DNA from: Armatimonadota bacterium
Lineage (GTDB): Bacteria; Armatimonadota; Fervidibacteria; Fervidibacterales; Thermosaccharophagaceae
Direction of reading: 5' to 3'
Assembly (NCBI GenBank): GCA_025062195.1
Contig: JANXAS010000020.1
Span: forward strand, 1 to 58,548
Length of the DNA stretch: 58,548 bases
Shown: positions 4,973-10,617 of the stretch, in pieces
Layout of the letters: each line of letters opens with the position of its first letter
How positions within the stretch are numbered: position 1 is the stretch's first letter
Notes under the pieces: generated by a model
Told to the model about the DNA's origin: nothing
The model's database searches: none
Seen by the model: only the letters and a program-made list of their open reading frames with translations
Program-made: the position numbers and the translations under genes

Positions 4973-5604
4973 GGCTTCTCACCTCCCATAGGAAATACGA
5001 TTTGCTAAGGTCATAATTTCATCCGCGTGCCGGCGCTGGGATAAAGCCATCCTCTTTGAACCATGCTAACTTGAACCATGCCAATGGCAGCCTTTAGAGG
5101 GGGAAAATTTATCGGTGGAGCATAGCTCTGCCTAAAAGATTTCTTTGGCTCGGCAGTAGCATCGCCCTCGCAAGTTTTGGGGAGACTTGCCTTTCCGAGC
5201 TGCCCGCAAGAATTTGGGTGCATTTCATTCGCCCCACACATTGTCAAATAAATTTGGGTCTCATTTGCTTCGTCAGCAGCGGTTGGCTAAAGCCAGTGAC
5301 ATGGATATGCACCGACAATTTTTCGGACTAAGAGTGGCGCTGAAAAGCTTGGGTGTGGGTGGCTTGAAGTTGCCCTCGCATTAAACTGCATAACTCCTTT
5401 TGGTGAATAAAATGGCGCTCGTTGGTTGCCCGCGGAATTTTTGAGTTTACATTGTTGAGGTTATGCGGCAAACTTTATATGCCACCAATGCTATAGACTT
5501 TTCGGACGATGAGCTGATGGCAATTGGCAGCGTGAGAGTTAAACATTAAGTTATAGGGTTAGCTTACCTTTGCAGCTCAACTGCCAAAGCAGGGAGTGGT
5601 GAAT
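4973..5604. other. Intergenic region between divergent units
   Basis: This region separates the minus-strand E1 operon from the plus-strand sulfur island, so promoters of both should lie here. Short open frames exist on both strands but lack ribosome sites and recognisable protein patterns. I found no convincing -35/-10 pair, riboswitch or RNA gene. Confidence 0.5.
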
Positions 5605-6822
5605 ATGCGGTTCGTCTATCTTGATTACAACGCTACGACGCCGCTTGATGAAAGAGTGCTTGAAGCCATGATGCCCTACTTGAAGGAGCAGTATGGCAAC
5701 CCGTCAAGCATTTATCGCTTCGCGCAAAACGCAAGAAAGGCAGTTGAGGATGCGAGGGCAAAAGTGGCAACACTGCTCAACGCAAGCGAAAGGGAAATTG
5801 TATTTACAGGCGGAGGGACTGAGGCGAACAATTACGCCATAAAGGGTTTTGCGTTCGCCAATCGGCATAAGGGCAATCACATCATCACATCCCAGATTGA
5901 GCACCATGCTGTGCTCAATGTGTGCAAGTATCTTGAGGAGCGACATGGCTTTGAAGTGACCTATGTTCCGGTTGACTCATACGGTGTCGTTGATGTGGAT
6001 GCAGTTAGGGAAGCAATAAGGGATGATACGATACTTATCACCATCATGCATGCGAACAACGAGACGGGCGTCCTTCAGCCTGTTGAGGAGATTGCAAAGT
6101 TGGCTAAGGAGCGCGGCATCTGCTTTCACACGGATGCGATTCAAGTTGCTGGCAAGATGAGGGTTGATGTGCAAGCACTCGGAGTTGATTTGCTCTCAAT
6201 ATCGGCGCACAAGTTTTATGGGCCAAAGGGTGTTGGAGCGCTCTTCATACGAAAGGGTGTGCGCATTGACCCTCTGATCCATGGTGGGCATCAAGAGATG
6301 GGCAAGAGGGCTGGCACCGAGAATGTGGCTGGCATTGTCGGTTTGGCTGAGGCATTCGCGCTCGCGCATGAGGGCATGGAAGAAGAGTGGGAGCGAGAAA
6401 AGCGCCTTCGTGACAAGCTTGAGCGGGGAATACTTGAGCGCATACCAGATGTCATTGTGAACGGTCATCCGGAAAAGAGGCTCGCAAATACCCTGAACAT
6501 TGTGGTCAAGTATGTTGAGGGAGAAGCGATGCTCCTGAGCATGGATGTGGAAGGCATATGCGCATCAAGTGGCTCTGCATGCACATCGGGTTCGCTTGAG
6601 CCGTCACATGTGTTGACTGCAATGGGCATACCACACGAGTTGGCTCACGGTTCGCTGCGCTTCAGCCTCGGAAGGTTTACAACCGAAGAGGACATTGATT
6701 ATGTGCTTGATGTGCTCCCTAAAGTCGTTGAGCGCCTGCGCGAAATATCTCCGTATGGGGTTGGGAAAGAGGAGTTGGAAAGGGCTGCTGAATACTCCTC
6801 ACGCAGGAGGCAGGTGCATTAG
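5605..6822 (+). CDS. nifS: Cysteine desulfurase (NifS/IscS family)
   Basis: A PLP enzyme of about 405 residues that takes sulfur from L-cysteine as a protein persulfide, feeding Fe-S cluster and other sulfur transfer. It begins YLDYNATTPLD as the family does. It has the PLP-site helix HANNETG, the Schiff-base lysine in SAHKFYGPKG (about residue 205) and the catalytic cysteine loop SSGSACTSGSLEPSHVL (about residue 325). The loop has the long form typical of IscS/NifS group I. The ATG at 5605 is preferred over two GTG codons immediately upstream. It heads a plus-strand run with nadA and an iscU-type gene. Given the SelW-like selenoprotein gene nearby, it could also supply selenium, but nothing in the sequence separates that from ordinary desulfurase activity. 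Confidence 0.93.
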   Translation: MRFVYLDYNATTPLDERVLEAMMPYLKEQYGNPSSIYRFAQNARKAVEDARAKVATLLNASEREIVFTGGGTEANNYAIKGFAFANRHKGNHIITSQIEHHAVLNVCKYLEERHGFEVTYVPVDSYGVVDVDAVREAIRDDTILITIMHANNETGVLQPVEEIAKLAKERGICFHTDAIQVAGKMRVDVQALGVDLLSISAHKFYGPKGVGALFIRKGVRIDPLIHGGHQEMGKRAGTENVAGIVGLAEAFALAHEGMEEEWEREKRLRDKLERGILERIPDVIVNGHPEKRLANTLNIVVKYVEGEAMLLSMDVEGICASSGSACTSGSLEPSHVLTAMGIPHELAHGSLRFSLGRFTTEEDIDYVLDVLPKVVERLREISPYGVGKEELERAAEYSSRRRQVH

Positions 6823-6840: not shown

Positions 6841-6881
6841 GGAGGTGTGGTGGCAACGCTGCAGCGTTGCCAAAAAGTATG
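6841..6881 (+). promoter_or_regulatory. Hairpin-spaced Shine-Dalgarno upstream of nadA
   Basis: GGAGGTG at 6841-6847 is 31 bases from the ATG at 6879, too far in linear RNA. Between them lies a perfect 22-base palindrome (6851-6872: 9-bp stem TGGCAACGC/GCGTTGCCA with loop TGCA). Folding it would leave nine bases between the ribosome site and the ATG. No other good site serves either the ATG or the upstream TTG. Confidence 0.55.
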
Positions 6882-7802
6882 GCAGCAAAAAAGGAGATTG
6901 AAGAGCTAAAGCGAATGATAGTTAAGTTGAAACGCAAGAAGGGCGCAATCATACTGGCGCACAATTATCAGCGTGAGGAAGTCCAAGATGTTGCCGACTT
7001 CATTGGTGACTCACTTGAGTTGAGCAGGACTGCAGCGCAGACGGATTCAAACTTTATCGTCTTTTGCGGTGTGCGCTTTATGGCCGAGACAGCGAAAATA
7101 CTCTCGCCGAAGAAACTTGTTGTCCATCCAGTGCCAATGGCTCGTTGCCCGATGGCAGATATGGTGACAGCCGATGACATACTGGAGCTGCGCAAAGAGT
7201 ATCCGAGGGCAAAGTTTGTGTGCTATGTCAACACGAATGCCGATGTTAAGGCAGAGTGTGATGTGTGTTGCACATCCGCAAATGCCGTTCAAGTTCTGCA
7301 GCGAATTGATGCTGATGAGATTGTCTTCGTGCCCGACAGGAACTTGGCTTTGTATGCTCGTAGGTTCGTGAAAGATAAGAGCATCATACCTTGGAATGGT
7401 TGGTGCTATGTCCATAAGCGCATAGGACTTGAAGAAGTGAAGCGCTCAAAGGAAATGCACCAAGATGCGCTCTTAGTTGTGCACCCGGAGTGTAACCCGG
7501 AAGTGATAGACATTGCCGATGAGGTCAAGAGCACCGGTGGTATGGTCAAACTTGCAAGCGAAAGCAACCATCGCAAATTCCTCATTGGCACTGAGGAGGG
7601 CTTGATACGCAGGTTGAGGCGCGAGCATCCAGACAAGATATTCATGTCGGCTGGCACGCCAAGGACATGCTACAACATGAAATTAATCACCTTGCACGAT
7701 GTCTACGAGGCGCTCATAAACGAATCTCCAGAAGTTGAGTTGCCCGAAGACATCCTGAGAAGGGCAAGGGGATGCGTTGAACGAATGTTGCAACTTGTCT
7801 GA
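6879..7802 (+). CDS. nadA: Quinolinate synthase NadA
   Basis: About 307 residues. NadA condenses iminoaspartate with dihydroxyacetone phosphate to quinolinate in NAD synthesis and needs a [4Fe-4S] cluster. The N-terminal ILAHNYQREEVQDVADFIGDSL is the family signature (given here in part: HNYQREEVQDVAD). Cluster cysteines are seen in the AECDVCCTSANAV segment, in HPECNPEV and in GTPRTCYNM. The 307-residue length is normal. The ATG at 6879 (MAAKKE) is preferred; the frame is open from a TTG at 6867. It lies between cysteine desulfurase and IscU, which makes sense for a cluster-dependent enzyme. No nadB or nadC is in the window. Confidence 0.93.
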   Translation: MAAKKEIEELKRMIVKLKRKKGAIILAHNYQREEVQDVADFIGDSLELSRTAAQTDSNFIVFCGVRFMAETAKILSPKKLVVHPVPMARCPMADMVTADDILELRKEYPRAKFVCYVNTNADVKAECDVCCTSANAVQVLQRIDADEIVFVPDRNLALYARRFVKDKSIIPWNGWCYVHKRIGLEEVKRSKEMHQDALLVVHPECNPEVIDIADEVKSTGGMVKLASESNHRKFLIGTEEGLIRRLRREHPDKIFMSAGTPRTCYNMKLITLHDVYEALINESPEVELPEDILRRARGCVERMLQLV

Positions 7803-7840
7803 GACAAGTTTAGTTGGCAAAAGGTGGGGGGCAAGCCGTC

Positions 7841-8281
7841 GTGTATACTGAAAAACTACTTGAACACTTTCGCAACCCGAGAAACTACGGGCGTATAGAG
7901 GATGCTGATGGTGTTGGGAAAGTTGGAAACCCAGTTTGTGGTGATGTGATGTATCTCTACATCAAGGTGGACGATGGGCGCATAGCAGATATCAAGTTTG
8001 AGACATTTGGGTGCGCCGCAGCGATAGCGACATCCTCAATGGTTACCGAAATGGTTAAAGGGAAAACGATTGAGGAGGCGTTGCAAATTACAAACAAAGC
8101 AGTTGCCGAAGCGCTTGGCGGGCTGCCACCGATAAAGATGCATTGCTCTTTGCTTGCTGAGGAGGGTCTCAAGGCAGCGATACTTGATTACTACAGCAGG
8201 CGTGGTATTGAGCCACCACAAGAGCTCGTTGAGCGGCTAAAGCGGTTGCGTGGCGAGGATACACATGATGCTGCTGAGTGA
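7841..8281 (+). CDS. iscU: Fe-S cluster scaffold, IscU/NifU N-terminal type
   Basis: About 146 residues from a GTG start (MYTEKLLEHFRNPRNYG), chosen because IscU proteins begin this way and AAGGTGGGGGG lies just upstream. The three conserved ligand cysteines are visible: NPVCGD (with the stabilising Asp), FGCAAAIATSS, and KMHCSLLAEE. The protein accepts sulfur from the cysteine desulfurase upstream and assembles transient clusters for transfer. It lacks a NifU ferredoxin or C-terminal Nfu domain. It is 38 bases after nadA and 48 bases before the SelW-like gene, so it is probably in one transcript. Confidence 0.93.
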   Translation: MYTEKLLEHFRNPRNYGRIEDADGVGKVGNPVCGDVMYLYIKVDDGRIADIKFETFGCAAAIATSSMVTEMVKGKTIEEALQITNKAVAEALGGLPPIKMHCSLLAEEGLKAAILDYYSRRGIEPPQELVERLKRLRGEDTHDAAE

Positions 8282-8329
8282 GGGGGGCAAGTAAGCAATA
8301 CCGTAAGCAAGCACAGTGAGGTGATGGGG

Positions 8330-8566
8330 ATGAAAATCAGCATCACTTATTGCGTGAGTTGAGGCTATATGGACAGGGCTGCCAGTCTGGCAGCAAGCGT
8401 GATGAATGCTCTCCTTGACGGCTTTGAGAAGATTGAGCTTTACCCAGCAAGCGGTGGCAGGTTTGAAGTGCGAGTTGATGGCGAGTTGATTTTTGACAAG
8501 CAAAAGGAGGGCAGGTTTCCCGAAGCCGAGGAGATAATCGCCTCCTTGAGGAGGCGTTTGAAATAA
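8330..8566 (+). CDS. SelW-like selenoprotein (Rdx family), UGA read as Sec
   Basis: A 78-residue protein only if the in-frame TGA at 8360-8362 is decoded as selenocysteine. It reads MKISITYCVS-U-GYMDRAA, giving the CxxU redox motif of selenoprotein W (residues 8-11) followed by the family's G-Y. The C-terminal half is typical of bacterial SelW/Rdx proteins: GGRFEVRVDGELIFDKQKEG, then RFPEAEEI. The ATG at 8330 has GAGGTGATGGGG upstream. Without read-through there would be only a 10-residue peptide, and the remaining frame would start without a ribosome site after the redox motif. A hairpin after the TGA supports Sec insertion. It follows iscU and precedes larE. SelA, SelB, SelC and SelD are not in the window. 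Confidence 0.82.
8378..8394 (+). promoter_or_regulatory. Putative bacterial SECIS hairpin
   Basis: The stem GCTGCC/GGCAGC encloses the loop AGTCT; an extra A-T pair can close it to GTC. The loop starts 22 bases after the TGA at 8360-8362. Known bacterial SECIS elements lie in the coding region directly downstream of the UGA with a small apical loop containing an early G, and the E. coli fdhF loop also contains GUCU. The fit is good, but function is inferred. Confidence 0.65.
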
Positions 8567-8984: not shown

Positions 8985-9806
8985 ATGATGATTGACGAAC
9001 GTCTGAGGCGCTTGCATGAGGTTATAAAACCGCTTGAGAGCGTCGTAGTCGCTTTCTCTGGCGGTGTTGATTCAACACTGCTTCTTAAGGTGTGTTTGGA
9101 TGTGCTCGGCTACGAAAATGTGCTTGCGGTAACTGCCAAGTCAGAGTTGTATCCAGATGAAGAGGTTGAAGCTGCATGCGCGTTGGCGAGCCAACTTAAC
9201 GCAAGGCACTTGATCATTGAAACCGACGAGATGAAGGATGAACGATTCGTTAAGAACACGCCTTTGCGATGCTACTACTGCAAATCCGAGCTGTTTACGA
9301 AGCTATGGGAAGTGGCGAAGGCTCACGGAATGAAAGCGGTCGTAGATGGCTCAAATGCAGATGACGCCTCTGATTATCGCCCCGGCATGCAAGCAGCTTG
9401 TGAGCTCAAAGTTTACAGCCCACTTAAGGAGGCTGGTCTGACCAAAGCTGATATAAGGGAAATCTCGAGCATGCTCGGGCTCCCAACATGGAGCAAACCT
9501 TCAATGGCATGTCTTGCCAGCCGCTTCCCATACTACCATGAGATAACTCCAAAGGAGTTGAGAATGGTCGCTGAGGCGGAACGATATTTGAAGACCATCG
9601 GGTTGACGCAGGTGCGGGTTAGACATCATGGGCTGCTTGCAAGGATTGAAATACTTCCGGATGAATTCGGACTGCTGCTCAGCGATAGCGTGAGAGAGAG
9701 CGTCGTTTCAAAGCTGCGCTCACTCGGCTATATATGGGTGACGCTTGATATGCGTGGTTACCACAGTGGCAGCTTCAATGAAATGCTCTCCCATGGGGGG
9801 GCATAA
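8985..9806 (+). CDS. larE: LarE-type ATP-dependent sulfur transferase
   Basis: A 273-residue PP-loop ATPase. The AMP-forming loop is AFSGGVDSTLLLK (about residues 23-35). RCYYCK at about 96-101 and the cysteine in SMACLASRFPY at about 178 are the cysteines expected in LarE; the latter aligns with the sulfur-donating or cluster-binding position. LarE adds sulfur to the pyridinium precursor of the nickel-pincer cofactor of lactate racemase-type enzymes. LarB and LarC are not in the window, so a broader sulfur-transfer role is possible. The ATG (or the next ATG) has AGGTGAGGC upstream. The neighbouring desulfurase, IscU and Rrf2 genes fit a three-cysteine, cluster-dependent LarE. Confidence 0.88.
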   Translation: MMIDERLRRLHEVIKPLESVVVAFSGGVDSTLLLKVCLDVLGYENVLAVTAKSELYPDEEVEAACALASQLNARHLIIETDEMKDERFVKNTPLRCYYCKSELFTKLWEVAKAHGMKAVVDGSNADDASDYRPGMQAACELKVYSPLKEAGLTKADIREISSMLGLPTWSKPSMACLASRFPYYHEITPKELRMVAEAERYLKTIGLTQVRVRHHGLLARIEILPDEFGLLLSDSVRESVVSKLRSLGYIWVTLDMRGYHSGSFNEMLSHGGA

Positions 9807-9859: not shown

Positions 9860-10291
9860 GTGCGCTTCTCAACTAAAGCGCGCTATGGCTTGCGCTTCTT
9901 GATTGACTTGGCGGTGAGTTACAAGGATTCGCCTGTGCGCTTGAGAGACATCGCTCTCCGTGAGAAAATTTCAAAGAAGTATCTTGAGCACATAGTTTCA
10001 GTGCTTGTGGCAAACGGCTTTGTTAGGGCTGTGCGTGGCTCAAAGGGTGGTTTTGTGCTTGCAAAGCCTATGGAGCAGATAGTCGTCCTTGATGTCATTG
10101 AAGCGCTTGAGGGTAAGCTCAGCGTTGTTGAGTGCATACTGCTGCCGGAGGTGTGTGAGCGCTCTCCGGATTGCGTTGCAAGAATGCTCTGGACAAAGGT
10201 GAACGAGGCAATAAGGCAAACCCTAAGGGGTGTGACTTTGAAAGACTTATACAACGAGGCGGTGCGTTGCGAACGCAAACGAAAACGATAA
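9860..10291 (+). CDS. Rrf2-family transcription regulator with three-cysteine motif
   Basis: A 143-residue winged-helix regulator. The N-terminus MRFSTKARYGLRFLIDLA and the wing VRAVRGSKGGFVLAKP are classic Rrf2 features. Cysteines occur as C-x6-C-x5-C in the VECILLPEVC...DC segment, close to the C-x5-C-x5-C ligand set of IscR, so it probably binds an Fe-S cluster. The GTG start is preceded by GGAGGTG. Its place right after desulfurase, iscU, the SelW-like gene and larE suggests that it senses Fe-S or sulfur status and regulates this island, but I did not identify an operator. Confidence 0.9.
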   Translation: MRFSTKARYGLRFLIDLAVSYKDSPVRLRDIALREKISKKYLEHIVSVLVANGFVRAVRGSKGGFVLAKPMEQIVVLDVIEALEGKLSVVECILLPEVCERSPDCVARMLWTKVNEAIRQTLRGVTLKDLYNEAVRCERKRKR

Positions 10292-10332
10292 GCCAACCTT
10301 TAAGCGAATTAACAAATTAGGAGGTGCATAAG

Positions 10333-10617
10333 ATGCCGGTGCAAGTTCGCATACCGACACCACTCAGGCGGCTGACAAATGATCAAGATCTCGTCACCGT
10401 TGAGGCGAGCACTGTCGCTGAAATGATTGAGAAGCTTGAGGAGCAATTTCCCGGTGTCAAGCAAAGGCTATACGATGAGAGTGGGCAGCTTAGGCAGTTC
10501 ATCAACATCTTCGTTGATGGTGAGGACATACGCTTTTTGAACGGGCTTGAAACGCCACTTAAGGAATCAAGCGAGGTCTCCATTATCCCAGCCATAGCTG
10601 GGGGCATCATTAACTGA
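10333..10617 (+). CDS. MoaD/ThiS/CysO-like sulfur carrier with C-terminal extension
   Basis: A 94-residue ubiquitin-fold sulfur carrier: strand VQVRIPTPLRRLT, helix ASTVAEMIEKLEEQFPGV, then FINIFVDGEDIRFLNGL and the final strand VSIIPAIAGG. This is very like the CysO/MoaD group used for cysteine or molybdopterin sulfur transfer. Active carriers end in GG, but here three residues (IIN) follow it. As in QbsE- or pro-CysO-type systems, a JAMM peptidase would have to trim it before adenylation. The ATG at 10333 has AGGAGGTG six bases upstream. No MoeB-type partner is adjacent; the nearest E1-like protein is at 2490-4130. Confidence 0.88.
   Translation: MPVQVRIPTPLRRLTNDQDLVTVEASTVAEMIEKLEEQFPGVKQRLYDESGQLRQFINIFVDGEDIRFLNGLETPLKESSEVSIIPAIAGGIIN

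Follow-up and report, generated by a model that had tools for sequence, protein, structure and literature searches.

The locus at positions 8330 to 8566 of the window (the whole 58,548-nucleotide stretch of the Armatimonadota contig JANXAS010000020.1 that was analysed) almost certainly encodes a SelW-like (Rdx) selenoprotein, in which, judging from the sequence, the TGA at 8360 would be read as selenocysteine (Sec). This reading is supported by the frame, by homology, by the machinery genes of the same genome, by a conserved and covarying hairpin and by the predicted fold. We infer Sec insertion by analogy with established bacterial biology: translation would start at ATG 8330 (or 8324), the SECIS hairpin would recruit SelB with Sec-tRNA(Sec) at the UGA, Sec would be inserted there, and the ribosome would go on to the TAA at 8564. 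The predicted product is small and thioredoxin-like (beta-alpha-beta-beta-beta-alpha). Its Cys8-x-x-Sec11 falls between strand 1 and helix 1; the protein is most likely a thiol/selenol oxidoreductase, a redox activity that we infer. The gene adds a member to a well-known family of bacterial selenoproteins and does not represent a new kind. A literature search on selenoproteins in Armatimonadota returned nothing on point. The features of the locus and its surroundings are collected in Table 1.

Table 1. Coordinates of the SelW-like gene, its elements and its neighbours in the window.
Feature	Position	Strand	Remarks
nifS	5596-6822		upstream of SelW-like gene
nadA	6867-7802		upstream of SelW-like gene
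nifU, NifU/IscU-type Fe-S scaffold gene	7814-8281	+	just upstream; stop 42 nt before ATG 8324
Shine-Dalgarno-like GAGGTGA	8318-8324	+	ends 5 nt before ATG 8330
Alternative in-frame ATG of SelW-like gene	8324	+	
Candidate SelW-like (Rdx) selenoprotein gene	8330-8566	+	78 residues plus stop (TAA 8564-8566); PF10262 79.8 bits, TIGR02174 64.3 bits, pLDDT 91.7
TGC, Cys8, first CxxU residue	8351-8353	+	invariant column
TGA, predicted selenocysteine 11 (CVSU)	8360-8362	+	read-through frame, homologue alignment
Bacterial SECIS hairpin GCUGCC-AGUCU-GGCAGC inside coding sequence	8378-8394	+	stem GCTGCC 8378-8383, loop AGTCT 8384-8388, GGCAGC 8389-8394; bSECIS criteria, covariation
larE	8985-9806		downstream of SelW-like gene
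Rrf2-type regulator gene	9860-10291		downstream of SelW-like gene
ThiS/SAMP1-like gene	10324-10617		downstream of SelW-like gene

Reading frame, protein family and predicted fold

Read through the TGA, the frame that opens at ATG 8330 gives the product MKISITYCVSUGYMDRAASLAASVMNALLDGFEKIELYPASGGRFEVRVDGELIFDKQKEGRFPEAEEIIASLRRRLK, whose CxxU/CxxC redox motif is CVSU. The earlier note on this DNA had placed an in-frame TGA at the CxxU position and a good ribosome site ahead of the ATG, and both are found. Frames interrupted by a single TGA are common by chance, the window holding 86 stop-to-stop frames of at least 75 codons with exactly one TGA, and openness alone is therefore no proof. The SelW-like frame is more than chance because homology extends to either side of the TGA, because the TGA falls at the exact position, and because the Sec machinery is present.

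In the search programs the product was entered with Cys at the TGA position. It exceeds the curated cut-offs of both Pfam Rdx (PF10262; residues 2-74, cut-off 22.6 bits) and NCBIfam TIGR02174 (CXXU_selWTH; SelT/SelW/SelH, cut-off 34.2 bits), and differs from these families in having Sec in place of Cys, at a codon that gene callers read as a stop. Against NCBIfam NF041051 (SelTWH_Campy) it scores 80.3 bits over nearly its whole length, yet this is below the cut-off of 88, and the protein therefore does not belong to that equivalog. Sequence comparison (E 1e-12 to 1e-11) places the PDB Rdx proteins 2obk, 2fa8, 2oka and 2p0g in the family of the SelW-like protein; 2obk and 2fa8, the two that were aligned residue by residue, have Cys where the SelW-like protein has Sec. 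The bacterial SelW-like selenoprotein family known from the Sargasso Sea and GOS surveys (PMC1088965, PMC2398784) shares with the present protein the Rdx domain, the CxxU motif, a SECIS element just after the UGA and the small single domain, and nothing essential differs between them.

According to an AlphaFold2 model built on a 22-sequence alignment (pTM 0.81; pLDDT in Table 1), the secondary structure elements follow the order E-H-E-E-E-H(H), with strand 1 spanning residues 2-8 and helix 1 residues 14-27. Cys8 ends strand 1 and residue 11 lies just before helix 1, which is the usual site of a thioredoxin-like CxxC/CxxU. In the alignment, C8 and U11 are invariant columns.

The hairpin downstream of the UGA

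The hairpin begins 15 nt beyond the TGA, and the loop 21 nt beyond it; the stem and loop are those described in the earlier note, which had put the distance at 16 bases. With a 6-bp stem, a loop of 5 nt whose second position is G and a fold energy of -11.9 kcal/mol, it falls within all four of the published limits for bSECIS elements, namely a loop of 3-9 nt, a stem of 4-16 bp, a G within the first two positions of the loop, and a distance of 16-37 nt from the UGA with an MFE of at most -7.5 kcal/mol (PMC13188914). The loop AGUCU also fits the N1-G-[G/U]-N-N2 pattern. An Rfam search gave no match in the region of the SelW-like gene.

Folded as a single sequence (31 nt), the hairpin exceeds shuffles in stability by only a modest margin (z -1.45), and we therefore used conservation of the register, synonymous recoding and the Cys homologues as controls for the SECIS assignment. 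In the hairpin register, 88% of cells are paired in 67 distinct Sec genes, compared with 37% in 33 Cys genes, while slid registers reach at most 53% (first 49 Sec genes). The pair 20-32, which joins third codon (wobble) positions on both sides, is paired in 65 of the 67 Sec genes against 43.7 in shuffles, and its composition varies (C-G 44, U-A 11, G-U 4, G-C 3, others); pairs 21-31 and 22-30 likewise lie above every shuffle, with p values that are optimistic because the shuffles ignore relatedness. Synonymous recoding, in which related sequences were counted separately, gave a combined p of 2.7e-7 for the Sec genes and 0.33 for the Cys genes; for the 8330-8566 gene alone p was 0.05. The proposal that the stem is a bacterial SECIS element is supported by the published limits, by the kept register and by wobble covariation that has no counterpart in the Cys genes.

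Homologues, machinery and other readings of the UGA

A search with the Pfam model found an Rdx gene in 39 of 291 genomes of the phylum, and in 38 of these genes a single TGA is the only stop within the match. The lone exception, in G001 of the same order, is a Cys form with the motif CVPC. Some 50 homologues with Sec and 33 with Cys share the column of the TGA, and the in-frame UGA hence stands opposite the Cys of homologues, as is expected of a selenoprotein. The 69 named loci from many phyla show either TGA or Cys at this column in every case in which the motif was readable; the named-locus search is biased to relatives that keep the peptide before the TGA, since its peptide patterns, one of them from that peptide, came from the query, a bias that affects the Pfam-based search of the phylum less. 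The frame downstream of the TGA is conserved in relatives, where random substitutions or further stops would have spoken against the earlier note.

The source genome (97% complete) contains tRNA-Sec (selC; anticodon TCA, 73.8 bits), selA (496.6 bits), selB (421.8 bits) and selD (363.6 bits; itself bearing an in-frame TGA, motif SGU), all exceeding their family cut-offs by a wide margin, although several of these searches also match weakly in control genomes. Across the phylum, tRNA-Sec is present in 32 of the 37 other genomes with a TGA-bearing Rdx gene, and the five in which it was not found are 72-88% complete. The four genomes without selA (G015, G017, G018, G022) have neither tRNA-Sec nor Rdx. 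With homology, machinery and a frame kept in relatives, the overall interpretation of the earlier note is upheld.

The SelD of the source genome is itself a selenoprotein, with the TGA in SGUASKW (L015:1501-2436, minus strand) and a short GCCC-GGU-GGGC hairpin after it.

Could the TGA at 8360 instead be a true stop, with the downstream frame translated alone or the locus a decayed pseudogene? The frame from ATG 8369 (65 aa) is open, and a weak GAGG (8361-8364) lies 4 nt upstream of its ATG, contrary to the earlier statement that nothing serves this frame. The product from ATG 8369 would, however, be devoid of strand 1 and of both redox residues, and relatives conserve the stretch ahead of the TGA but not the Met at 8369. 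Decay would not yield one TGA and no other stop in nearly all homologues of the phylum, and the covariation of the hairpin at wobble positions argues against both the stop and the pseudogene; we hold this explanation to be extremely improbable. Another reading is that a code change or a suppressor tRNA makes the UGA specify Cys, Trp or Gly; it could draw on the existence of Cys homologues and on an extra tRNA-Cys in the source genome (G000) whose body resembles that of tRNA-Sec, since such a tRNA-Cys with a UCA anticodon is described for some other bacteria in the review PMC7609411. The anticodon of the extra tRNA-Cys is, however, GCA, and it should therefore read UGC/UGU, while tRNA-Sec is the only one of the scanned tRNAs with a TCA anticodon. 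Moreover, the neighbouring genes need no UGA recoding, nifU itself ending in TGA (8279-8281), and the presence of selA, selB and selD speaks for Sec. The chance that the UGA specifies another amino acid is close to negligible, and we retain selenocysteine as its reading.

The extra tRNA-Cys (GCA), which the source genome carries besides an ordinary tRNA-Cys (C66), is 92 nt long and was found at L004:1501-1592 (G000:C84:57108-57199) and at L027:1780-1871, minus strand (G001:C22). It has a tRNA-Sec-like 4-nt D-loop (UGGU), a long variable arm and U73, and resembles the 'selC*' tRNA-Cys of other phyla as described in PMC7609411. Among the 291 phylum genomes, the tRNA-Sec-like pattern with a GCA anticodon occurs only in G000, G001 and perhaps G258. 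In G001 this tRNA lies about 55 nt directly upstream of the Cys-form SelW gene on the same strand (L027:1501-1871, minus strand), the only Cys form in the phylum set, and a scan of 31 TGA-bearing Rdx loci found no tRNA-Cys nearby. The adjacency is one case and possibly due to chance.

Neighbourhood and meaning of the finding

The SelW-like gene directly adjoins the nifS, nadA, nifU, larE, Rrf2-type regulator and ThiS/SAMP1-like genes, and the earlier note took the desulfurase, iscU and larE neighbours as a hint at selenium or sulfur trafficking. A trafficking partner of NifS-NifU would be compatible with a selenoprotein. However, the order nifS-nadA-nifU-[SelW]-larE was found in none of 83 other Rdx loci (tblastn with seven neighbouring proteins), many of which have short flanks, those from whole genomes having only about 1.5 kb in this comparison. 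The Rdx gene of G001 and the best nifU match in that genome sit on separate contigs, and SelW-like genes are widespread without the nifS-nadA-nifU-larE arrangement. The hint is thus not supported: we regard such a partnership as improbable, and the more specific proposal that SelW, with the neighbouring NifS-NifU, moves selenium or sulfur or repairs Fe-S clusters as slightly more doubtful still. A selenium-trafficking operon was rejected, as no neighbourhood is conserved across the 83 loci. Given the 42-nt gap, and with no terminator-like site detected between 8200 and 9000, co-transcription with nifU is possible, but it does not argue for a functional link. The product of the ThiS/SAMP1-like gene, which adjoins the Rrf2-type gene and larE, has a ThiS/MoaD fold and scores 63.6 (cut-off 60) as a SAMP1 ubiquitin-like small modifier.

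A partnership with NifS-NifU, if true, would provide a physiological role for bacterial SelW. The gene itself is an annotation correction, of a kind normally missed. Since nearly every SelW of this phylum is a selenoprotein, gene callers will miss or truncate it throughout. The Cys form of G001, a genome that keeps tRNA-Sec and selA, offers a Sec/Cys comparison for what Sec adds to this fold.
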